Source: a virus
Direction: 5' to 3' (one strand)
IMG/VR virus record: IMGVR_UViG_3300047462_000635
Location: 1 to 35,482 of that record
DNA length: 35,482 nucleotides
The notes beneath the pieces are model-generated. The model was not told where the DNA came from, did not search any database, and was given only the letters and a program-made list of their open reading frames with translations. Positions 1,594-29,941 of this stretch are shown here, one piece after another. A program made the translations under genes and the position numbers. Positions within the stretch are counted from its first letter, which is position 1; every line of letters begins with the position of its first letter.

Positions 1594-2340
1594 TCACCAT
1601 CGCGCGATGCCCTCGCGCAGCGCCGTATAGTCTAGCTGTGTCCAGCTGTGGGGGTCGAAGAGATAGATCCGTCGGCCATCCGCCGGAGCGTGGGCCAGGG
1701 GGGCGTCGGTTGAGACGGCGAACGCGGTTCGGCAACGAGGATTGGAGAAATCGCCCCCGGCCTCCAGCTTGGCTTTCAAGGGCAGGCCGCCCGGCCCCAT
1801 GCGGAACAGCATGGGCACGATCTCGTCCACCGGCGCTTGATCGAGCCAGGTCTCGGTCTCGCACCAGGACGCTAACGCCGTCATGGACAGTCGCTTGTCC
1901 TTGGCCAGACCGTGCCGAACGTCGGATAAGAGGTCGAGCAGAACGCCGCGCTCCGACCGCCTGACCTCAAAATCCACTTGTAGACCATCGACCCCCGGCG
2001 GTTCGCCGAAAGCCAGCACCGCCTGGGCCGCCTGCCGCCGCTGATCGGGCGTCCAGGCCAGAGGCCGGCCATGGTCGATCTGGATATGGACCAAGGCCGT
2101 GGAGGGGCGCCCCGACATCCGAAGCGGAAAGCGCCGGCCGCGGGCCTCAACGCCATCGCCGCTTAGGACGATGAAGCCGCTTTGGAGCGCGACGTCGGCG
2201 GCGTCGCCCACAAACCGCAGATCCTCCGGCCGCTCCCACGCCCAAACGACCACGCGGCCGGGCGCACGCGCCGAGCCCAGCATCACCATCGCAAAGATGA
2301 GGAAAACGCCGCGAACCCACATGCCTGCCCGAACCCACAT
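1594..2340 (-). CDS. DUF3142 family exported protein
   Basis: The product is 248 residues. A hydrophobic leader (GVFLIFAMVMLGSARA) is followed by VVVWAWERPEDLRFV, a core with VHIQIDHGRP, and VDGLQVDFEVRRSER. This matches the DUF3142 pattern, whose members look like TIM-barrel glycosidase relatives of unproven activity. The ATG at 2340 was chosen. A second ATG at 2322 lies in a tandem 18-nt duplication that gives MWVRAGMWVRG and would leave a tighter signal peptide; the frame also extends to a TTG at 2358. No strong ribosome binding site separates these options. The gene lies just upstream of the exported unknown protein and is probably in the same operon. The family call is fairly firm; function is unknown. 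Confidence 0.7.
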   Translation of the reverse strand: MWVRAGMWVRGVFLIFAMVMLGSARAPGRVVVWAWERPEDLRFVGDAADVALQSGFIVLSGDGVEARGRRFPLRMSGRPSTALVHIQIDHGRPLAWTPDQRRQAAQAVLAFGEPPGVDGLQVDFEVRRSERGVLLDLLSDVRHGLAKDKRLSMTALASWCETETWLDQAPVDEIVPMLFRMGPGGLPLKAKLEAGGDFSNPRCRTAFAVSTDAPLAHAPADGRRIYLFDPHSWTQLDYTALREGIARW

Positions 2341-2487
2341 GCCAGAAGCGTCGCTCAATCTGTCTTCGCGGCCAAGAGTGGAGGGGGAGCCGGCGTCGAA
2401 ATTTTCGCCGGCATGGCGACATCATCGCCGTCCTCAAACGCGATCTCTGACGCTATATGCACGGTCTCAGGCCTAAGGGAGATGGCG

Positions 2488-3102
2488 ATGAGCGGTGCAG
2501 ACCTTGGACGGCGGAGCTTGGTGGCGGGCGCAGGCCTGTTGATGGCGGGCGGCGTCGGCGCGCGGGCTGCAGCCCTTAAGCCCAAGGTGGCGATCAAGAC
2601 CAACCATGGTGTGATCGTGGTCGAGCTGGAGGCCGAGCGGGCGCCGCTGACCAGCGCCAACTTTCTGCACTATGTCGATACTGGCCGGTTTGATGATGGG
2701 TCCTTTTATCGGGCGTCGCGCACGCCGGGCTCGCCGAAGGAGGGCACGATCGTCGGCGGCCCTTCGGACCACACCCACCGCTATCCGCCCATCGCTCATG
2801 AGAGCACGACGATGACGGGCTTGAAGCATACCACTGGAACCATCTCGCTGGGTCGCTACGCGCCGGGCTCCGCCACGGCCGACTTCTTCATCTGCGCCAG
2901 TCCCGAGCCCTATCTGGACGCCCATCCGGGCGCAAAAGGGGACAATCTGGGCTACGCGGCCTTTGGCCAGGTCGTGGCGGGCATGCACGTTGTGCGCACC
3001 ATCTTGGCCTTGCCGACGCCGGGAAAATCCCGCTTCCCGGATATGAAGGGGCAGTGGCTGGATCCGGTGGTGCCCATCTTCACCATGCGCCGGGCGGTAT
3101 AG
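2488..3102 (+). CDS. Tat-exported cyclophilin-type peptidylprolyl isomerase
   Basis: The product is 204 residues. The start is set by AAGGGAG at 2475-2481, six bases before the ATG at 2488; another ATG at 2482 is too close to it. Residues 8-9 are a twin arginine (LGRRSLVAGAG) followed by a hydrophobic stretch, a likely Tat signal. The mature part has cyclophilin blocks: HGVIVVELEAERAP, NFLHYVDTGRFDDGSFYR, HTTGTISLGR, ATADFFICAS and AAFGQVVAGMHVV. It should catalyse cis-trans isomerisation of Xaa-Pro bonds in the periplasm. It is a host gene, divergent from the DUF3142 gene, and the last gene before the phage block. Confidence 0.88.
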   Translation: MSGADLGRRSLVAGAGLLMAGGVGARAAALKPKVAIKTNHGVIVVELEAERAPLTSANFLHYVDTGRFDDGSFYRASRTPGSPKEGTIVGGPSDHTHRYPPIAHESTTMTGLKHTTGTISLGRYAPGSATADFFICASPEPYLDAHPGAKGDNLGYAAFGQVVAGMHVVRTILALPTPGKSRFPDMKGQWLDPVVPIFTMRRAV

Positions 3103-3328
3103 CGAGTTACAGACGCATTTCGCAGTTGTCAGCGCCCCGCGAATCACCGATAAAAACATATGGGTTGAATTTGCGGCCGGCGGCTACGTCGATAACGGCT
3201 AATGGCTGACGTCAAAGCCATCCAATCCTCACCTCCTTTATACAGTGATTGCCCATTCCGGCTTACCGTTCAAAAGCGGTCGCGCTTGGCAGCCGTTTAG
3301 TCTGACACCAGTCTTCTAACGAGGCGAT
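3103..3328. other. Left junction between host gene and phage late genes
   Basis: This 226-nt gap between the cyclophilin stop and the small terminase holds no convincing gene or tRNA. A TGACGTCA palindrome (3207-3214) sits inside a slightly longer imperfect inverted repeat (TGGCT...AGCCA, 3203-3220). A TATACA hexamer at 3239-3244 could be a -10 element, but no -35 is convincing. By eye it shares no direct repeat with the right-hand gap at 34530-34611, so no attachment site can be proposed. Confidence 0.35.
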
Positions 3329-8212: not shown

Positions 8213-9751
8213 ATGACTCAAACCACCTCCGCCGACATCCATAAGATGTTCGTGCAAGCCCACGCCAATCCCAGCGAAGACATCGCCCGATCGGTCCTGA
8301 TCAACGCCGGCGTCGATCCAGGGGCGCTGGAGAAGACGATTTCCACAGCCACCGGCCTCGTCGCCTATGATCTGCAGGCGCCGGCCAAGAACCTCTATCC
8401 AGTCAATACGCCGATCCGAAATACGCTACCGCGGATCGGCGGGGGCACGGGCACGGCGACCAACTGGCGCCAGGTCAACGCCATTATCGGCTCTGGCTAT
8501 GACGCCTCGGGCTGGGTGCCCGAAGGCCAGCGAGCGGGCGCGATGAGCTATAGCACCTCGACCAAGGCCGCCAGCTTCTGCACCCTCGGTGAAGAAGACG
8601 CGGCGACTTATGAAGCCATCAGCGCCGCGCAGGGCTTCGAAGACGTCAGCTCTTCGATGTCGACGCGCCTGTTGCAGAAGTTGATGCTGAAGGAGGAGCT
8701 GGCGCTTCTCGGCGGCAACACCTCGCTCCAGCTCGGCACGCCCGCGGCGCCGACGGTGATCGCGAGCGCTGTTTCGGGCGTCACCGGAACCCTGCCGGCG
8801 GCCACCTATTCGGTGATCGTCGTCGCCCTGACGCTGGAAGGAATGAAGAACGCCTCGCTCAGCTCCGGCGTCGCGACAGCCAAGACCATCACGGGCCAGG
8901 ACGGCAAGACCTTCACCCTCAATGGCGGCTCGTCCAACAAGTCGGTCAGCGGCTCGGTTCCTTTGAGCCTGGGCCAGGTGCTGCAGGCCAGCGTCCCTCC
9001 GATCAACGGCGCGCTCGGCTATGCCTGGTACGTCGGCGCGGTCGGCGCCGAGACGCTGCAGGCGATCACAACGATCAACTCCATCGCGCTGTCGGCGCCG
9101 CTGTCGACCGGCAACCAGGCGGCCACGGCCATCACCGCCGACTGTTCGACCAACGCCACCGCCTTTGACGGGCTTTTGACCTGGGCCTTCAAGTCCGGCG
9201 GCTATCAGAACACGCTGGCCACTGGCGCGCCGGGCGTCGGCACGACCCTGACCGCGTCGGGTAAGGGCACGGTGAACGAGATCGACGCCATGCTGGAAGG
9301 CATGTGGGACGCCTATCAGGTGTCGCCTGACGTTCTCTACGTCAACAGCCGGCAACTCCGCGACATCACCACCAAGGCGCTGTCCAGCGGCACGGCGCCC
9401 CTGTTGTCGATCCGCCAGGACGCCGACGCGCCCGGCTATCAGCTCACCGCCGGCGGCAATATCGGCTGGTATTTCAATCCCTTCACCATGGATGGAGGCC
9501 AGCGTATCCCGATCCGGCTGCACCCCAACGTGCCGGCCGGCACGATCCTGGGGTGGGCCTCCAACCTGCCGGCCCAGTACATGAGCAACAACGTGCCCTA
9601 TGTGGCGTCCGTCAAAACCCGTCAGGACTACTACGCCATCGACTGGCCGATCACGACGCGCCAGCGCCAGCGCGGCGTCTATGCGGAAGAAGTCCTGGCC
9701 GTCTACGCCCCCTTCGCCATGGGCATCATCAGCAACATCGCGCCGGGCTGA
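8213..9751 (+). CDS. Major capsid protein (HK97 fold) with a large inserted domain
   Basis: The product is 512 residues from the ATG at 8213 (AAAGG twelve bases upstream); an in-frame ATG at 8189 is possible. The N-terminal part has NTPIRNTLPRIGGGTGTATNWRQVNAI and the C-terminal part has PLLSIRQDADAPGYQLTAGG and QDYYAIDWPITTRQRQRGVYAEEVLAVYAPFAMGIISNI, a pattern of HK97-type capsid proteins. Residues about 182-305 are Thr/Ser/Val-rich and look like a beta-sandwich (PAATYSVIVVALTLEGMKN, YAWYVGAVGAETLQAI), probably an Ig-like surface insertion that makes the protein longer than the usual 300-400 residues. It forms the icosahedral shell. Confidence 0.88.
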   Translation: MTQTTSADIHKMFVQAHANPSEDIARSVLINAGVDPGALEKTISTATGLVAYDLQAPAKNLYPVNTPIRNTLPRIGGGTGTATNWRQVNAIIGSGYDASGWVPEGQRAGAMSYSTSTKAASFCTLGEEDAATYEAISAAQGFEDVSSSMSTRLLQKLMLKEELALLGGNTSLQLGTPAAPTVIASAVSGVTGTLPAATYSVIVVALTLEGMKNASLSSGVATAKTITGQDGKTFTLNGGSSNKSVSGSVPLSLGQVLQASVPPINGALGYAWYVGAVGAETLQAITTINSIALSAPLSTGNQAATAITADCSTNATAFDGLLTWAFKSGGYQNTLATGAPGVGTTLTASGKGTVNEIDAMLEGMWDAYQVSPDVLYVNSRQLRDITTKALSSGTAPLLSIRQDADAPGYQLTAGGNIGWYFNPFTMDGGQRIPIRLHPNVPAGTILGWASNLPAQYMSNNVPYVASVKTRQDYYAIDWPITTRQRQRGVYAEEVLAVYAPFAMGIISNIAPG

Positions 9752-9771
9752 GGCTCAGCGCCGCTAAGATC

Positions 9772-9797
9772 GAGGGGCGGTCGATGCGCCGCCCCTC
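9772..9797 (+). terminator. Terminator-like hairpin after the capsid gene
   Basis: A perfect 9-bp stem, GAGGGGCGG (9772-9780) and CCGCCCCTC (9789-9797), with an 8-nt loop, lies 20 bases after the capsid stop and is followed by ATTGTCTTCT. The T-tract is weak, so this is more likely a partial terminator or an mRNA stabiliser. Either would let capsid protein be made in excess over the downstream connector genes. Confidence 0.5.
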
Positions 9798-9820
9798 ATT
9801 GTCTTCTGATGAGGTGAGGC

Positions 9821-10180
9821 ATGACCAATATCAATCGCAAGATGGTGCGTCTGTATGCCAGCGAGGGCCAGGACGAGGCCAATTACGGAACCGAACGGTT
9901 CCGCGTCCATGAGGACCACACCATCGACGTGCCAAGCGAGGCGGTAGACAGCCTGGTCCGCGTGGGCGGGTTCGAGCGGATTGCTGAGGCCACTCCGGTT
10001 CCTCAGGGCCACATCGCCTTGGCCCATCCTCAAGGTATCGGGTGTTCCTGGGGTGGAACGGCTTATCCCGCGGATGCGGAAGGCCTCGTCATCGTTCCCG
10101 TCGCCGCGGCGGCGGACCTGTTGGCCCACGGCTTCAAGCCGGTCGAAGAGCTTGAGGAGAAAACCCATGGCTGCGGGTGA
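9821..10180 (+). CDS. Small head-region protein of unknown function
   Basis: The product is 119 residues, between capsid and connector genes. GAGG at 9811-9814 precedes the ATG by six bases. It has no signal peptide or membrane segment. It contains TIDVPSEAVDSLVRVGGFERI and IALAHPQGIGCSWGGTAYPADAEGLVIVP. Genes in this position often encode head decoration or head-completion proteins, but I recognise no specific family. Its last 14 bases overlap the next gene, so it is translated within the head operon. Confidence 0.7.
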   Translation: MTNINRKMVRLYASEGQDEANYGTERFRVHEDHTIDVPSEAVDSLVRVGGFERIAEATPVPQGHIALAHPQGIGCSWGGTAYPADAEGLVIVPVAAAADLLAHGFKPVEELEEKTHGCG

Positions 10181-10757
10181 TCTCTGTCAACTCGCCGACG
10201 TCCAGGCCTGGCTGCCCAGCGCCCCGACCGCCTCGCCCGGCGTCGATCTGATCGCGCAACTGATCACGGCGGCGTCGCGCGCCATCTGCGCCTACTGCGG
10301 CCGCGGCCAGTTCACGCTTCAGAGCTATACCGACACCTATGACGGCGCTGCTAAGACCTGGATGCTACTGCGCCAATGGCCGGTCCTGTCGGTGACCGCG
10401 ATCGCCCTGACCCAGGGCGGCGTCACAACGACCCTCACCGATCCGACCACGTTTCAGCTCGAAGCCCCGATCCCGGCCGGCGGCGCTCAGCGCCTGACGC
10501 TCGTCTCGTCGCACCTCTATTTTCCGCGAGGACGGGGTAACGTGCAGATCACCTACGAGGCGGGCTATTCCACCGTGCCGGCCGACGTCGCTCAGGCCTG
10601 TATCGAGGCGGTGGGCGAGGCCTATCAGCGGCGCAATAGGATCGGCCAAACCTCGGTCTCCAGCCAGGGCCAGACCACGGTCGCCTTTAGTCAGAGCGAC
10701 CTGAACGCGGCGGCCAAGGCCATGCTGGAGCCCTATATCCGCCGTCTCCCTCTGTAG
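10167..10757 (+). CDS. Head-tail connector (gp6-like adaptor)
   Basis: The product is 196 residues. The ATG at 10167 follows GAGGAG (10154-10159) by seven bases and lies inside the end of the preceding gene. The layout is that of HK97 gp6-like adaptors: an N-terminal helical part (LADVQAWL, DLIAQLITAASRAICAYCGR), a beta-rich middle (QWPVLSVTAIALTQGG; VQITYEAGYSTVPADVAQACIEAVGEAYQRRNRIG) and a C-terminal helix (AKAMLEPYIRRLPL). It would form a ring under the portal for tail docking, corresponding to g6 of Rhodobacter-type GTAs. Confidence 0.82.
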   Translation: MAAGDLCQLADVQAWLPSAPTASPGVDLIAQLITAASRAICAYCGRGQFTLQSYTDTYDGAAKTWMLLRQWPVLSVTAIALTQGGVTTTLTDPTTFQLEAPIPAGGAQRLTLVSSHLYFPRGRGNVQITYEAGYSTVPADVAQACIEAVGEAYQRRNRIGQTSVSSQGQTTVAFSQSDLNAAAKAMLEPYIRRLPL

Positions 10758-13183: not shown

Positions 13184-14170
13184 ATGGCTGACGATTCAGA
13201 ACTGAGTGTCAGCTTCACCGCCGACACATCTGGCCTGGAGGCCGGCGCCGAAGCGGCGGCTGGGTTGATCGATAGCTTCAGCGCCCACGTCGCCGATGTC
13301 GCCCCGCTGGCGGATCAGCTCGCCTCAATCGCTGCGATGACCGCAGCGTTTCACACCCAGGTGGCCGCGAGCTCCGCAGCGGCGAACCAGAAGGTCGCAG
13401 CCGGCGCTAAAAACGCGGCCGACCAATACGCCCAGGTGTGGAAAAAAACCGTCTCAAGCGTCGTCGATACCTTCGGCGACGGTCTGCTTGCCATGGCGCG
13501 GGGGACCGAGAGTTTTCACGCCGTCGGTCTGAAGGTGGCGGAGGCGGTGGAGGACGTCTTCGTCAAGGCGATTGAACACACCGTGGTCTCCCATGTTCTG
13601 GGCGAAACCACCAAAGCGGCGGCGACCACGGCGGGGCAGGCGACCCAGACGGCGGCCACCTCGGCCGGCGTCGCACAGCGCACAGCGGCGGAACAGGCGG
13701 GCCAGGCGGAGAGCCTGGCGGCGGACCTGAGCGCGACCTTGAAGAAGATCACCAACGCGGCGGCAGCCGCGGCGGCTTCGGCCTACCACGCCTTCGCCGA
13801 TGTGCCCCTGGTCGGCCCGGCCCTGGGCGCGGCGGCCGCGGCGGCGACCTTTGTGGCGGTCGAGAGCTTCGGCGCCCTCGCCAGCGCCTCAGGCGGCTAC
13901 GACATCGGGGATGAGAACCCGCTCGTTCAGGCGCACGCCAGGGAAATGATCCTGCCGGCGTCGATCGCCGAGCCCTTGCGCGGCATGATCGCGGCGGGCG
14001 GCGCGGTCGGGGCGGGGGGCTCTAGCGGCCTCGGCGCTGCGGGCTCGGGCGGCGCAACCCACCACTGGAACATCCAGGCGCTCGACAGCCGCAGCTTCGC
14101 GCGCACCCTCAATACCTCAGCAGGTCGAACCGCAGTGCGCCGCGCCGCTGCGGCGCATTTGAGAGGGTAG
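13184..14170 (+). CDS. Tape measure protein (short)
   Basis: The product is 328 residues with TTGAGAGG just before the ATG. It is Ala-rich and helical, with a central hydrophobic stretch (VPLVGPALGAAAAAATFVAVESFGAL) and the C-terminal GGYDIGDENPLVQAHAREMILPASIAEPLRG. That segment recurs in alphaproteobacterial phage tail proteins. The tape measure sets tail length; at the rough rule of 0.15 nm per residue the tail would be about 50 nm, similar to GTA tails. Its place right after the G/GT chaperone supports the call. Confidence 0.78.
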   Translation: MADDSELSVSFTADTSGLEAGAEAAAGLIDSFSAHVADVAPLADQLASIAAMTAAFHTQVAASSAAANQKVAAGAKNAADQYAQVWKKTVSSVVDTFGDGLLAMARGTESFHAVGLKVAEAVEDVFVKAIEHTVVSHVLGETTKAAATTAGQATQTAATSAGVAQRTAAEQAGQAESLAADLSATLKKITNAAAAAAASAYHAFADVPLVGPALGAAAAAATFVAVESFGALASASGGYDIGDENPLVQAHAREMILPASIAEPLRGMIAAGGAVGAGGSSGLGAAGSGGATHHWNIQALDSRSFARTLNTSAGRTAVRRAAAAHLRG

Positions 14171-14218
14171 CGAAAGGCATCCTTGATGCGCTCAAGCACT
14201 GCGGCCCGAGCGCACTCC

Positions 14219-15637
14219 TCAGTCCGACAGCGACGGAATCAAGCTCAAATAATAGGTAATCGCCGGCTGCAAATTCGCGATCGGCGCCCGTTCGTTCAGG
14301 CCGTGGCTGAAGTTATCGGACGACTTCATGAACATGGGGCCCGCGCCATAGCTCGGCACGCCGCGATAGCGGAACCACATGCTGTCGCTGGCGCCAGACG
14401 CCATATCGGGGAATATGGGCACGCCGGGATAGGCTTTCCCTAAGGCCTTATCGACCGCGGCGATGAAGTCGGGCCGCATCGGCGAGGCGGCGGTGGCGAC
14501 CGATCCCTCGGTCACGTCTTTAAAGCTGACGGCGGGTTCGGCGGCGACGCGCTGGAGCTCCGCCATGATGGCGGCGCGGGTGTGGCCGGGAAAGATGCGG
14601 CAGTTGATATTGGCCGAGGCGTGCTGGGGCAGGGCGTTCAGCGCGTGGCCGCCGTTGATCATGGTGACGACGCAGGTGGTGCCGATCTCGCCGACCACGG
14701 CCGGATCGGCTGTGATGGTCGCGATGGCTGCGGCGTCGGTTGGGTCGGCGACGAAGGCCTTTAGCGCCGCGCCGATCTTGGGGTCTTCATACTTGGCCGC
14801 CTGGGCGAGCGAGACGCGGGTCAGGTCGCTCAGCTCAGGCTTGAACTGATAGTTGTGGATGCGCAGCAGGGCCGCGGCCAGCTGGTCGATGGCGTTGATC
14901 TGGCGGGGTTCCGAGGAGTGGCCGCCGGGATTTGAGACGCTCAGCTCAAAGTCCGCATAGGTCTTTTCCGCGCCCTGCCAGGTGAAGAACAGCGGTTTGC
15001 CGGTGGTTTCGTCGAGCACGCCGCCGCCGCCGTCGATGTTGAGCACCAGATCCGCGTTGCTGAGCTTGTCGGCGATGATGGCGCTGCTTTTCATCGTCGT
15101 CTCTTCGTCGCCGGAGAACTCGATGATGATGTCGCGCCGCGGCCGATAGCCTTCTCGCTTCAGCTCGATCAGGGCGGCGATGGCGAGCGTGCCGTCGAAT
15201 TTCATGTCGCTGGCGCCGCGGCCGAACAGATAGCCGTTTTCGACCACCGCGGTGAACGGATCACGCACCCAGTCCGAGGGCTTGGCTTCGACCACATCCA
15301 TATGGCCGGAAATGACCAGGGGCTTCAGCGAGGCGTCAGACCCGCGCCAACGCGCGATCAAATAGGCGGTGTCGTCCATTGGCGTGATCGTGACGTCGCC
15401 GGGGGAAAAGCCGCCCGCCACCAGAGCATTCCTGTAAAGCTCCGCGACTTGGGGCGTCTGGTTGCCCGGCCCTTGAACCGATCTGAACGCGATCGCCTTT
15501 TTCGCGAGATCGAGCGCCTGGGCCTGAGCTTCGGTGTAGGTCGGCGCAGCGGCTTTAGCGCTGCGGACGGCTGCGCCCAATATTATACCGCTCAGCACCA
15601 GGCTGGCCGTGACCAAGCGTGTCGTCGCGATCTTCAT
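14219..15637 (-). CDS. Exported M20-family metallopeptidase
   Basis: The product is 472 residues from the ATG at 15637; another ATG at 15649 adds four residues. A Sec signal (TRLVTASLVLSGIILGAAVRSAKAAA) is followed by the M20 zinc hydrolase core: SGHMDVV with His112 and Asp114, GRGASDMKFDG with Asp144, GDEETT with general base Glu178 and ligand Glu179, a dimerisation-domain SNPGGHSSEP, and a late His in KSSDNFSHGLNERAP. It would hydrolyse peptides or N-acyl amino acids in the periplasm. All key residues are present. It is a typical bacterial, non-structural gene on the opposite strand inside the tail operon. Confidence 0.88.
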   Translation of the reverse strand: MKIATTRLVTASLVLSGIILGAAVRSAKAAAPTYTEAQAQALDLAKKAIAFRSVQGPGNQTPQVAELYRNALVAGGFSPGDVTITPMDDTAYLIARWRGSDASLKPLVISGHMDVVEAKPSDWVRDPFTAVVENGYLFGRGASDMKFDGTLAIAALIELKREGYRPRRDIIIEFSGDEETTMKSSAIIADKLSNADLVLNIDGGGGVLDETTGKPLFFTWQGAEKTYADFELSVSNPGGHSSEPRQINAIDQLAAALLRIHNYQFKPELSDLTRVSLAQAAKYEDPKIGAALKAFVADPTDAAAIATITADPAVVGEIGTTCVVTMINGGHALNALPQHASANINCRIFPGHTRAAIMAELQRVAAEPAVSFKDVTEGSVATAASPMRPDFIAAVDKALGKAYPGVPIFPDMASGASDSMWFRYRGVPSYGAGPMFMKSSDNFSHGLNERAPIANLQPAITYYLSLIPSLSD

Positions 15638-15769
15638 GCGCTTTCGCATCCCTAAAATATTTAACCCTGGGTATCGCCTTTCCTTAGGCCTGAAAAGCGA
15701 AACACGGCGGGGATGGAGGGCTGGCTGTGCGCATGTCGTGATCTTAGGCGAGACCACAAAAGTCTCGGT

Positions 15770-16105
15770 TCAATCCGCCTTTAAGGCGGCGAGTTCATTT
15801 CCGCTCGGATCACGGAAGTGGAAACGCCGGCCGCCGGGAAAGGCGAAGACGGGCTTGGTGATGACGCCGCCCGCCCTGCCGACGGCGTCGAGCGCAGCCT
15901 CGAGATCATCGACGGCGATGACCGCCAGCGGCGCCGTCGTCGCTTCGCTGGTGTCAGCCTGGAGGCCCAGATCGACATCGCCGGTCATGGTGCAGCTGTA
16001 GCTCGGCCCAAAATCGGTAAAGTTGAGATCGAAGGCGGCTGCGTAGAAGGACCGGGTCGACGCCAGATCGGAAACCGGCAATTCGACGAAGCAAATACGA
16101 GACAT
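15770..16105 (-). CDS. VOC-superfamily (glyoxalase-like) protein
   Basis: The product is 111 residues; AAGGA lies eight bases before the ATG at 16105. It shows the beta-alpha-beta-beta-beta pattern of VOC proteins: ICFVELPVSDLASTRSFYAAAF at the start and FAFPGGRRFHFRDPSGNELAAL at the end, with Glu8 and the late Glu as likely metal ligands. Relatives act in aldehyde detoxification or antibiotic binding, and the substrate cannot be told. It is on the minus strand, upstream of the M20 gene, and the two probably arrived together. Confidence 0.82.
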   Translation of the reverse strand: MSRICFVELPVSDLASTRSFYAAAFDLNFTDFGPSYSCTMTGDVDLGLQADTSEATTAPLAVIAVDDLEAALDAVGRAGGVITKPVFAFPGGRRFHFRDPSGNELAALKAD

Positions 16106-16303
16106 TACGATTTTCCTTTAGACGCCACTTTCGTGCTGAAGCCCGGCGGCGTCAATAGACTTGAGTCTGTCCCCCGAATCTCTTAGTCTTTGTCTTAGCG
16201 GTTGATTTTGCGTTCGAAGGTCTTTGCGCCTCGCGCCGCCGCCCAATCCTCGTCTTAAATATCCGCCCGGCCGCACGCCGGGTTTTGCGCGTGGAGAGAC
16301 GCC
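16106..16303. other. Gap between the inserted gene pair and the resumed tail operon
   Basis: No gene is visible in these 198 bases. The stretch 16195-16258 is less GC-rich than its surroundings. It must hold the promoter of the VOC gene on the minus strand, though none is identifiable. A terminator-like hairpin lies near its right end. Confidence 0.3.
16266..16286 (+). terminator. Terminator-like hairpin before the DUF2460 gene
   Basis: CCCGGC (16266-16271), a 5-nt loop and GCCGGG (16277-16282) form a perfect 6-bp stem followed by TTTT. It ends 17 bases before the DUF2460 ATG. It may be the remnant of a gene end brought in with the M20/VOC insertion, or an attenuator on the tail-tip genes. 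The T-run is short, so confidence is modest. Confidence 0.4.
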
Positions 16304-16903
16304 ATGATTATCTTTCCCACGCTGACCGGTATGTCCTTCACCGTGAACAAGGGGCCAAGCTTCAACACCTTGACGAAGCAGGCCGCCTCCGGCCGCCAGG
16401 TGCGGGTCAGCCTGCAATCCGCGCCGATCTGGAAGTTCAAGCTGGCGTTTGAGTATCTGCGCGATCGGGCGGCGGCGACGTCGGATGTGCAGAACCTCTG
16501 GGCCTTCTTCAACACGGTGGGCGGCCAGTTCAAGCCGTTCTACTTTCTCGACCCTTACGAAAACGCAGTGCTGGACCACGGGATCGGGGTCGGGAACGGC
16601 TCGACAACCTCGTTCCAGCTGACCCGCACCGTCGGAGCCGGCACAGATTATCCCTGGATCGAGCCGGTCTATGGCGTCTTTGGCGCGCCCACCGTCTACG
16701 TCAACGGCGTTCCCACCGCGGCGACCCTTGGCGCCTATGGCGTGATCTCGTTTTCCACGCCGCCGGCCGCAGGCGCGGCCATCTCCTGGTCGGGGACCTT
16801 CATGTTCCTCTGCCATTTCACCCAGGACGATGTGCAGCCAAGCCAGATGGTGAAGGGCCTATGGAGCCTGGACGGGCTTGAGTTCGAGAGTCTCCTCCCA
16901 TGA
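16304..16903 (+). CDS. DUF2460 distal tail protein (GTA g12-like)
   Basis: The product is 199 residues; GGAGAG just upstream sets the ATG at 16304. It has the DUF2460 pattern: an N-terminal FPTLTGMSFTVNKGPSFNT, then FKLAFEYLRD, LWAFFNTVGGQFKPFYFLDPYE, and a beta-rich C-terminus ending QMVKGLWSLDGLEFESLL. In Rhodobacter-type GTAs and many siphophages it is the distal tail ring under the tube. It overlaps the next gene by ATGA, so the tail-tip genes are translationally coupled. Confidence 0.88.
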   Translation: MIIFPTLTGMSFTVNKGPSFNTLTKQAASGRQVRVSLQSAPIWKFKLAFEYLRDRAAATSDVQNLWAFFNTVGGQFKPFYFLDPYENAVLDHGIGVGNGSTTSFQLTRTVGAGTDYPWIEPVYGVFGAPTVYVNGVPTAATLGAYGVISFSTPPAAGAAISWSGTFMFLCHFTQDDVQPSQMVKGLWSLDGLEFESLLP

Positions 16904-27644: not shown

Positions 27645-28790
27645 TTAAACGGCTGTTTTGAGCTGCTGTGATTCGGCATCATGCTGTGTCGTGACGAAGA
27701 TCTTGCTGCTATGCCAGGTAAGCGGTGGAAAGCGAAGCGCCCATCGTTCTAAGCCAAAAACCTGTTTCTTCAACTTGCTCGCCGGCTTTTCTATGATGTG
27801 CCAGGATGCAATGGCCAAAGCGAAGGCGAGCGGATAGGCGATCACGAAATTCATGACTGGTGTCCGAGCCAAAGGTATGAGCGCGACCGCGGCCTGCTGG
27901 ATCGGAAACCCATACAAATACACGCCATATGAATAATCGCCACTGAACAGCATCTTTTGCCTTGGTGGATTCAGAGTGCCCAGGAACGCGGCGCAATAGG
28001 CGATCGGCAAGGCCGCGAAATAGTCGCCGCCGCGGATGTTCATCAACAATTCTACCAAGACGGTGCTGGCGAGAAAAAGCGGAAAGCTCAAAGGAACCCG
28101 ATCTCGAAAGCGAAATAATAAAAGACCTGCCAGGAAATTTAAAACGAGAACCAAGCCTACAACTAGGGCATTCATAGGCGGGTGATCATGGAATACATGA
28201 TATATTATTGCGGCTTGTACAATTATTAGCAGCACCAAAAAAGCAAGCCGCCTCGCCGCTATACCTAGAAGCGCGATACTTGCGAGCAAAATATAACATT
28301 TCAGTTCCGAAGGTATCGTCCACAGCTGACCGTTAATGATGCTTGGGAACGGATTATGCTGAAAAACTCCCGGCAGCGTGTACTGTATATCGCCTATTAT
28401 ATTAAGGGCGTACGCAAAAAACTCGTGGCTGGAAAAATAGTCCCGCAGCTGGACCGTCGTTACCAATGGTCCTAGAACAAGAGCAGAAAGCAGCACTTCG
28501 ACAACGAGCGCGGGTACTAGCCTGATTACGCGTAGGCCCAGGAAGCTTATAACCGATTTGTTGCGCTCCAAGCTCCCAGCCACCAAAAATCCGCTCAGCG
28601 CGAAAAGCATCGGCAGGACGGTCCCGAAAATCCCACGGAAGGGGACCATAAAGACCATGTCTCCAACTGTCCGACCATAGCACAAGCTGACGGCGTGCTG
28701 AACGATGACCGCCGTCGCTAGCGCGATCCGCATGTAATCAAAACCGGCCGGCCTGTTTGACGCCGCCTCCATTTTCTCTGCAAGAGTCAT
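27645..28790 (-). CDS. Acyltransferase 3 family membrane protein
   Basis: The product is 381 residues with about ten hydrophobic segments. The family's R-x10-H motif is present near the N-terminus (Arg21 in DYMRIALA, His32 in IVQHAVS), followed by GIFGTVLPMLFALSGFLVAGSL and, later, DYSYGVYLYGFPIQQ and a WHIIEKPA motif. These enzymes transfer acetyl groups to polysaccharides such as O-antigen; phage-encoded ones change serotype and block superinfection. It overlaps the glycosyltransferase by ATGA. DNA is less GC-rich than the phage core. Confidence 0.9.
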   Translation of the reverse strand: MTLAEKMEAASNRPAGFDYMRIALATAVIVQHAVSLCYGRTVGDMVFMVPFRGIFGTVLPMLFALSGFLVAGSLERNKSVISFLGLRVIRLVPALVVEVLLSALVLGPLVTTVQLRDYFSSHEFFAYALNIIGDIQYTLPGVFQHNPFPSIINGQLWTIPSELKCYILLASIALLGIAARRLAFLVLLIIVQAAIIYHVFHDHPPMNALVVGLVLVLNFLAGLLLFRFRDRVPLSFPLFLASTVLVELLMNIRGGDYFAALPIAYCAAFLGTLNPPRQKMLFSGDYSYGVYLYGFPIQQAAVALIPLARTPVMNFVIAYPLAFALAIASWHIIEKPASKLKKQVFGLERWALRFPPLTWHSSKIFVTTQHDAESQQLKTAV

Positions 28791-29812
28791 AAATCGTCTC
28801 CGGGCGGCACCAACCCTCCCGCATCGTGGATTATGCTACAATCCCGATCGTCGACCCGGCGGGCCGAGCTTATAGTTTCAAGCGCGAATTTTCTGATTAA
28901 TGGTGGGCAGTCACCAAAATTTCCCCGCGCAAAATCATAAATTCCTATTGCATGTGCTTTCGTCGATGAAGTGATCGTGCCCTTCCTAATAAGGTCCTTC
29001 ACCGCACGTTTTACTAAACGGCCTATGGTTCTAAAAATTAGGTTTGCCCGCTGCTGGGCGTTCGCGTGACGTGATGAAAATAACAGTTCATTTCTATGTA
29101 AAAAATAATTTTGCATTGGTCCATCAAGCGGTCCAATTGAAGCCCCGACCTTATGAATTACGATCGATGTTGGAACAATATAACATTTATATCCAAATTT
29201 TCGTGCTCTATAACACCAGTCAGTTTCTTCGTAATTTAGAAAAAAATTCTCTTCAAAATACCCAATATCACGCCATATATTTGCTGGCGCAAATAGTGCG
29301 GCACCGAGTGCGAAATCGCTTTCAATTAACTCGCTTGTGAGTTTTTCAGTATCACTAAGGTCAAACCAGTCTGGGTGTCCCACGTCTAGATTGGTTCGGC
29401 TGCCAAAGAATTGGAATTTTTCCGTACCAAAAATCTTTATAGAACAACCAAGAATGGCATTATTATTAAGTGACATAGTCTGATAAATGAGGCTATTTAT
29501 TGTCGATGGCAGAACGGTGGCGTCGTTATTCAAAAGAAAAATATGTGTTGATCCATCTAATAAAGCGTTTTGAATGCCGATATTGCATCCGCCGGAAAAG
29601 CCAGAGTTTATATTATTATAAATTATGGTGGCATTACGTTTTATATTGCGATTTAATACAATGGCTGAATCCTCAGTGGAGGCGTTATCGACAACGTATA
29701 TCCAAAAGTTTTCAAATGTTGACAATTGTAGAGAGTTATATGCTGCGACGGTATCGTGGGGGCGGTTCCAATTAACGATAATTATCCCAACACGAAATTT
29801 GTTCGCTTCCAT
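28787..29812 (-). CDS. Family 2 glycosyltransferase
   Basis: The product is 341 residues. The ATG at 29812 is chosen because GGGGAGA lies eight bases upstream; the frame opens earlier at a TTG (29842). GT-A fold marks: VGIIIVNWNRPHDTVAAY, YVVDNASTEDS, NSGFSGGCNIGIQNAL, FLLNNDAT (the nucleotide-sugar and metal site), and EENFFLNYEETDWCYRARKFGY. It resembles rhamnosyltransferases of the WbbL type. It is coupled to the acyltransferase, so the pair likely adds and acylates a sugar on LPS. The gene is clearly AT-richer than its surroundings. Confidence 0.9.
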   Translation of the reverse strand: MEANKFRVGIIIVNWNRPHDTVAAYNSLQLSTFENFWIYVVDNASTEDSAIVLNRNIKRNATIIYNNINSGFSGGCNIGIQNALLDGSTHIFLLNNDATVLPSTINSLIYQTMSLNNNAILGCSIKIFGTEKFQFFGSRTNLDVGHPDWFDLSDTEKLTSELIESDFALGAALFAPANIWRDIGYFEENFFLNYEETDWCYRARKFGYKCYIVPTSIVIHKVGASIGPLDGPMQNYFLHRNELLFSSRHANAQQRANLIFRTIGRLVKRAVKDLIRKGTITSSTKAHAIGIYDFARGNFGDCPPLIRKFALETISSARRVDDRDCSIIHDAGGLVPPGDDL

Positions 29813-29941
29813 TTCGGCGGTCTCCCCAACCGCGACCCGCAACCGTGATAAAATGCCCTTACGTTCCTGATCTATTAGCTCTCAGCCGTGTCCTAGATGA
29901 CTTCTACCCGGCGGGACATCGTCATCGCTCGGCCTCCCCAC

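Follow-up and report, generated by a model that had tools for sequence, protein, structure and literature searches.

A host-like M20 peptidase and VOC gene pair in a recurrently occupied, mostly antisense cargo slot between phage tape-measure and DUF2460 genes

An M20 peptidase gene and a VOC gene lie side by side on the minus strand between two plus-strand tail genes of a 35,482-base IMG/VR phage record (IMGVR_UViG_3300047462_000635), which was analysed over its whole length and is called the window here. What is a host-like pair doing inside a tail operon, and is it the debris of a failing prophage or cargo that the phage keeps? The explanation we favor, with a probability of roughly 0.8, is that the two genes form a moron cassette of host origin, that the slot they occupy is a recurrent site for cargo, and that they would be expressed in the lysogen, antisense to the tail genes, whose expression would restart at a leader behind them.

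The window also encodes a terminase, a portal, a protease, a tail module, and a lysozyme. The tail module runs in the order tube, g12342, tape-measure protein (TMP), DUF2460, gp84-type hub, NlpC/P60, and Rcc01698-type protein. The left border of the slot is the TMP gene (13184..14170, plus strand), which matches PHROG 2854, tail length tape measure, at 3.6e-12. The right border is the gene for a DUF2460/Rcc01695-like distal tail protein (16304..16903, plus strand; Pfam PF09343 at 4.7e-33, and TIGR02217 at 1.7e-08, under its cutoff). From the TMP stop at 14170 to the DUF2460 start at 16304 there are 2133 bp, with both genes of the pair on the minus strand. None of the window proteins searched was identified as an integrase or a repressor, so the temperance of this phage rests on its relatives inside bacterial genomes.

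The M20 gene (14219..15637, minus strand) encodes a metallopeptidase of the PRK09133 subfamily with an N-terminal signal peptide. The protein matches Pfam Peptidase_M20 (2.7e-27) and M20_dimer (3e-16) and the full length of NCBIfam NF006596 (PRK09133), covering residues 8–471 of 472 at 573 bits against a curated cutoff of 349. Its motifs HMDVV, GRGASDMK, SGDEETT, NIDGGGG, and NFSHGLNER presumably mark metal and catalytic positions. Translation probably begins at the ATG at 15637 (472 aa, MKIATTRLVTASLVLSG...). An earlier GTG at 15757 (512 aa) is disfavored because the frame of the closest relative, G001, opens only at the equivalent ATG, again giving 472 aa. In a tree of 82 M20 proteins whose bootstrap is not fully settled, the M20 copies of the two phages group together (100/100). 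Their branch adjoins two Sphingomonadaceae MAG proteins (100/97) and is nested among chromosomal proteins of Sphingomonadaceae and Caulobacteraceae, indicating a host origin. These chromosomal proteins are the best 80 of 400 relatives, and at all 80 of their loci no other window gene was found near the M20 gene. Viral searches with M20 and with a TMP alignment returned G001 alone, and an M20 query of a phage collection gave 11 records, each below 60% identity and each spanning less than 80% of M20.

The VOC gene (15770..16105, minus strand) encodes a 111-aa protein of the VOC/glyoxalase fold (Pfam Glyoxalase PF00903 at 5.1e-10, 40.2 bits against a cutoff of 20.6). It has no signal peptide by our crude score. 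No NCBIfam family matches at 1e-3 and Ble-like_N falls below its cutoff, so that neither glyoxalase I nor bleomycin resistance is indicated as a specific function. A Sphingomonas-group genome supplies the best chromosomal relative, at 86% identity, which marks the gene as foreign to the phage; the second reaches 82%, and the remaining relatives listed are at 68% or less. Of 295 genomes in the genus of Sphingomonas sp. QA11, 179 contain a relative. Around the two best relatives, no other window gene was found in the 14.0 and 11.4 kb fetched. Since M20 and VOC have separate chromosomal relatives, neither accompanied by other window genes, the two genes were apparently acquired separately, from hosts of sphingomonad type. 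Under a codon score whose training set was tail genes, M20 reaches 163.0 and VOC 30.5, both on the minus strand, and no plus-strand ORF is kept in the M20–VOC region. Pfam matches, codon scores, and coordinates thus agree with the sequence-only reading that both genes are intact and opposite in strand to TMP and DUF2460, and the signal peptide that it assigned to M20 passes the crude score.

Most head and tail proteins of the window recur in its closest relative, G001 (IMGVR_UViG_3300049216_000601, 35,971 bases), at ~78–97% identity (TMP at 87%), and G001 carries M20 in the same place and orientation. The convergent spacer between the TMP and M20 stops, 48 bp in the window (14171..14218), is 388 bp in G001, an interval ~0.34 kb longer. 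VOC is not present in G001. In its stead are ~330 bp with the 69-codon truncated start of a secreted protein, which has no Pfam match and which we take to resemble a type I phosphodiesterase. Between the two records M20 has a dS of 0.56 and a dN/dS of 0.107 (Nei–Gojobori with Jukes–Cantor, custom script). Because these values fall inside the ranges of 14 other genes (dS 0.35–0.83, dN/dS 0.045–0.407), the pattern of substitution indicates that M20 entered before the two phages split, has since been passed on as part of the phage, and is subject to selection.

This comparison bears on two other accounts of the pair. Host DNA could have inserted by chance into a decaying or domesticated prophage, where it would be neutral and on its way out, as the missing VOC, the truncated secreted-protein start, and the differing spacer lengths of G001 might suggest. 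Against this, the tail and head genes of the window are open and under purifying selection relative to G001, as is M20, and the same junction is recurrently occupied in other phages, mostly on the minus strand, which leaves chance insertion distinctly unlikely. The chromosomal insertion into a decaying prophage that had been offered as one option thus gave way to the finding that M20 and the tail genes co-diverged under purifying selection in a separate record. A metagenome assembly chimera joining host and phage DNA would also place host-like genes beside tail genes, and both records are virus-collection contigs. The same M20 junction order nevertheless appears in G001 at 15% DNA divergence, and other cargo occupies the same junction in bacterial genomes, making a chimera extremely improbable.

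The two records differ at other places as well. G001 (L089, 11367–13202) has, between g10185 and hk97gp10, a minus-strand ORF of 611 aa whose N-terminus is signal-like and which has no match in Pfam, NCBIfam, or PADLOC; in the window g10185 and hk97gp10 adjoin each other. One stop is reported in its g8177 copy (L089 ~8799–10373), for which the coordinates may be at fault. Window positions 27645–29842 hold minus-strand genes for an acyltransferase (Acyl_transf_3) and a rhamnosyltransferase-like glycosyltransferase, possibly a second, surface-modifying cargo region; G001 has other content there, including a distant acyltransferase.

The junction was followed through 97 related sequences from viral contigs and bacterial genomes, two of which are the halves of G001 and some of which are isolate prophages counted twice. 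Tail genes were located by iterated HMMs; both TMP and DUF2460 were found in 79 sequences, and the other 18 lack one border and are unscored. The TMP–DUF2460 gap is bimodal, at 4–268 bp in 31 loci and 560–3824 bp in 48. Gaps of at least 500 bp occur at 0 of 90 DUF2460–gp84, 6 of 86 gp84–nlpC, and 1 of 82 nlpC–rcc98 junctions, and at 1 of 46, 0 of 47, 1 of 52, and 0 of 38 in four further tail junctions. The g12342–TMP junction has 2 of 38, as a lower bound, and g8177–g10185 has 7 of 38 with a median already at 304 bp. The expectation that TMP and DUF2460 adjoin each other elsewhere is borne out by the 31 short gaps, by the 71 bp between them in Dinoroseobacter phage R5C, and by the 9 bp between a long ORF (annotated hypothetical) and a DUF2460 match in Acinetobacter phage 5W. 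In a separate observation, the DUF2460 frame of one relative (L113) opens ~300 codons earlier (507 aa), which suggests a fused N-terminal domain, and L133 has a similar upstream frame.

Dereplication at 90% DUF2460 identity by single linkage leaves 42 lineages, of which 16 are occupied (at least 500 bp), 24 have at most 100 bp, and 2 lie between. On a tree of DUF2460, gp84, and NlpC, occupancy changes at least 8 times, with 7 changes forced by strong branches, against a shuffled mean of 13; because related sequences are counted as separate, the shuffle counts for occupancy, and those for the TMP–cargo pairing below, are not probabilities. Occupancy is therefore clustered, yet it has been gained or lost repeatedly. 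The empty site that the sequence-only reading had asked for is present in L125, the nearest other lineage and the sister of the window in the tree (SH-aLRT 100), where the end of the TMP frame overlaps the beginning of the DUF2460 frame, which carries an extra N-terminal stretch. L091 is nearer to the window in DUF2460 (61%) and lies outside both the tree and the scored 79. Hand inspection of the 1.69 kb ahead of its DUF2460 gene found no TMP and, on the minus strand, a secreted protein of a different kind.

The pair itself is rare among the 97 sequences scanned, with M20 in two records and VOC in one, which speaks against its being fixed at this site in distant phages. The same count bears on whether M20 is a fixed late gene, such as a wall- or peptide-cleaving enzyme of the particle. 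Its retention at the same place in the window and G001 would suit such a role, but the gene is opposite in strand to the whole tail operon, encodes a signal peptide, is not in the other sequences scanned, and belongs to an exopeptidase/deacylase-like family, so a particle enzyme is highly improbable.

What fills the slot in other phages was read by codon-score gene finding, which correctly picked up 176 of 182 known tail genes. Among 49 loci with a gap of at least 250 bp, close relatives included, cargo is on the minus strand only in 36, on both strands in 6, and on the plus strand only in 5, with no call in 2. Counted by lineage, among 13 with an ORF of at least 90 aa, 10 have it on the minus strand and 3 have plus-strand cargo. 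Long gaps without a convincing ORF occur in L191/L192, L163, and L174. The largest cargo families have 21 and 11 members and no Pfam match. Further cargo includes PDZ proteins, a YbjQ/zinc-ribbon protein, a Pmp3-like membrane protein, and a P22-type antirepressor domain. L106, a prophage in the isolate genome of S. asaccharolytica NBRC 15499, and L142 share 93.8% identity along 1460 bp of DUF2460–gp84 and yet carry cargo of unrelated families, A in one and B in the other. These different cargoes beside flanks of 94% identity, together with the empty site and the selection on M20, identify the pair as a moron cassette in a recurrent slot, not prophage debris. The term moron, proposed for the pair from the window alone, fits host-like genes set between genes that are adjacent in relatives, at a site that is empty in L125 and variable in content. 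Not all cargo is of this host-like kind. Family A occurs in only 1 of 295 genomes of the genus of Sphingomonas sp. QA11 (G005), in the prophage itself, and some cargo therefore appears to be phage-borne, unlike M20 and VOC.

Much of the cargo looks exported. By a signal-peptide score that is strict but still crude, 29 of 48 cargo ORFs qualify, compared with 21 of 626 tail proteins; a looser rule flagged 52 of 90 gp84 proteins and was dropped. Such proteins adjoining the TMP gene might form a phage-defense or superinfection-exclusion set, M20–VOC included, in place of metabolic genes. Precedents are HK97 gp15 and Tai, as presented in the part of PMC11364771 drawn on here. A defense set is nonetheless unlikely, as PADLOC matches neither M20 nor VOC nor the two commonest families, A and B, and M20 and VOC have ordinary chromosomal relatives. 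Nine of ten proteins submitted to PADLOC gave no match, the exception being the HTH protein of L003, with weak RmrA matches.

A related and tentative idea, itself rather doubtful, is that the junction is an antisense switch for lysogeny-only expression, with the commonest cargoes being periplasmic exclusion proteins matched to TMP type. Exported cargo would be shut off by head-on late transcription, tail expression would restart at a portable leader cassette, and TMP-matched periplasmic cargo would block DNA injection by related phages. This idea draws support from the association of families A and B with different TMP types, since TMP C-terminal identity is 0.64 within a cargo family and 0.40 between the two. 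DUF2460, which is equally near, shows 0.86 within and 0.81 between them. Inside family A, cargo follows DUF2460 no less closely than TMP (r 0.59 and 0.50), so functional matching is not upheld there and plain linkage can explain the pairing. The TMP of the window is just 328 aa, against frames of ~900–1100 aa in most family A and B relatives, which suggests a short tail.

If cargo interrupts the operon, the genes behind it may need their own signals. Upstream of DUF2460, a noncoding block (16160..16242, plus strand) is 84% identical to G001 by blastn and is a candidate DUF2460 promoter/leader region. It is followed at 16266..16303 (plus strand; alignment and fold) by a hairpin, then TTTTGCGCGTGG, then a purine-rich RBS-like stretch right before the DUF2460 ATG. 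This leader, with TTTTGCG(C/T)GTGG or a near variant between hairpin and purine-rich stretch, precedes DUF2460 in the window, G001, L003, and L091. In L003 it also precedes nlpC, behind a 1.8-kb insert that splits gp84 from nlpC; at 1600–3300 (plus strand) L003 encodes a DUF4258 protein and an HTH/MqsA-like protein, a toxin–antitoxin-like pair. Across the 97 sequences a strict pattern matched only G001, L091, and L003 (twice), and it may miss other variants because the window's own copy was missed by one base. The leader motif has one match in the window against a shuffled mean of 0.11. Repetition elsewhere in the window was considered and failed, with single matches only, and no second copy was found there at gp84 and nlpC, which overlap. 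The five places, in one small clade, suggest that the leader resets tail-gene expression after an interruption. A consensus promoter and terminator scan was uninformative, giving one sigma-70-like site, on the plus strand inside the insert, against 0.6 in shuffles, and no promoter-like site upstream of DUF2460 or VOC.

Returning to the moron cassette, we propose that the slot belongs to a phage group that includes sphingomonad prophages and that its content has been gained, lost, and replaced, most simply through recombination within the conserved tail genes that flank it. In the lysogen, cargo would be expressed, most likely from a promoter of its own and in the antisense direction relative to the late tail genes. 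After induction, late transcription would oppose the cargo, and downstream tail expression would begin anew or be reset at the leader conserved ahead of DUF2460. We predict that M20, once exported, serves in the periplasm as a peptidase or amidohydrolase. VOC would be a small enzyme of the cytosol that binds a metal or ligand, and both may act for the good of the host, perhaps in metabolism or detoxification.

The moron idea is ordinary in itself. What was not found in the literature, judged by titles and abstract openings, is a description of this reusable place between TMP and DUF2460; the slot is of more interest than M20 or VOC themselves. An oddity of one phage becomes a locatable rule, in that cargo can be sought between the TMP and DUF2460 genes throughout a phage group. 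The natural series of empty, swapped, and inverted slots offers a test of whether antisense placement in a late operon silences lysogen genes during lysis, and the apparently exported families without a Pfam match are candidates for lysogen phenotypes in sphingomonads.

In module order, the window resembles GTA-like modules such as that of phage R5C, in which TMP, DUF2460, the gp84-type hub, NlpC/P60, and the Rcc01698-type protein follow one another, as they presumably do in RcGTA. TMP and DUF2460 are directly adjacent in those modules, whereas M20–VOC separates them in the window. Phage morons, as described in the portion of PMC4378225 used here, share with the pair an insertion between genes adjacent in related phages and a horizontal acquisition. 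They are usually single genes flanked by a promoter and a terminator, whereas here many unrelated cargoes, most of them antisense, have used one and the same slot. Another likeness is with the noncontiguous operon that Tha and Ith form in S. aureus prophages (PMC11087260, in the excerpt consulted), where an antisense gene with its own promoter is nested in a phage operon. The window has this nested arrangement, with minus-strand M20 and VOC between plus-strand tail genes, but the antisense gene of Tha/Ith is an inhibitor within the cI operon, while here host-like enzymes lie in a tail operon. A parallel in orientation is the Tai/Ati system of phi80, for which the section of PMC11364771 used here describes taiEcA as interrupting the Q-driven late operon and pointing against it, its level falling when Q is supplied, and calls it constitutive after mitomycin C. 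Tai homologues lie mostly upstream of the packaging module and are paired with a counter-defense gene (PMC11364771, same section), and the cargo families of the slot differ from Tai. The shared feature is a lysogen gene set against the late operon that encloses it, and by analogy with both Tai and Tha/Ith, slot cargo that is on in the lysogen and opposed during lysis would fit.
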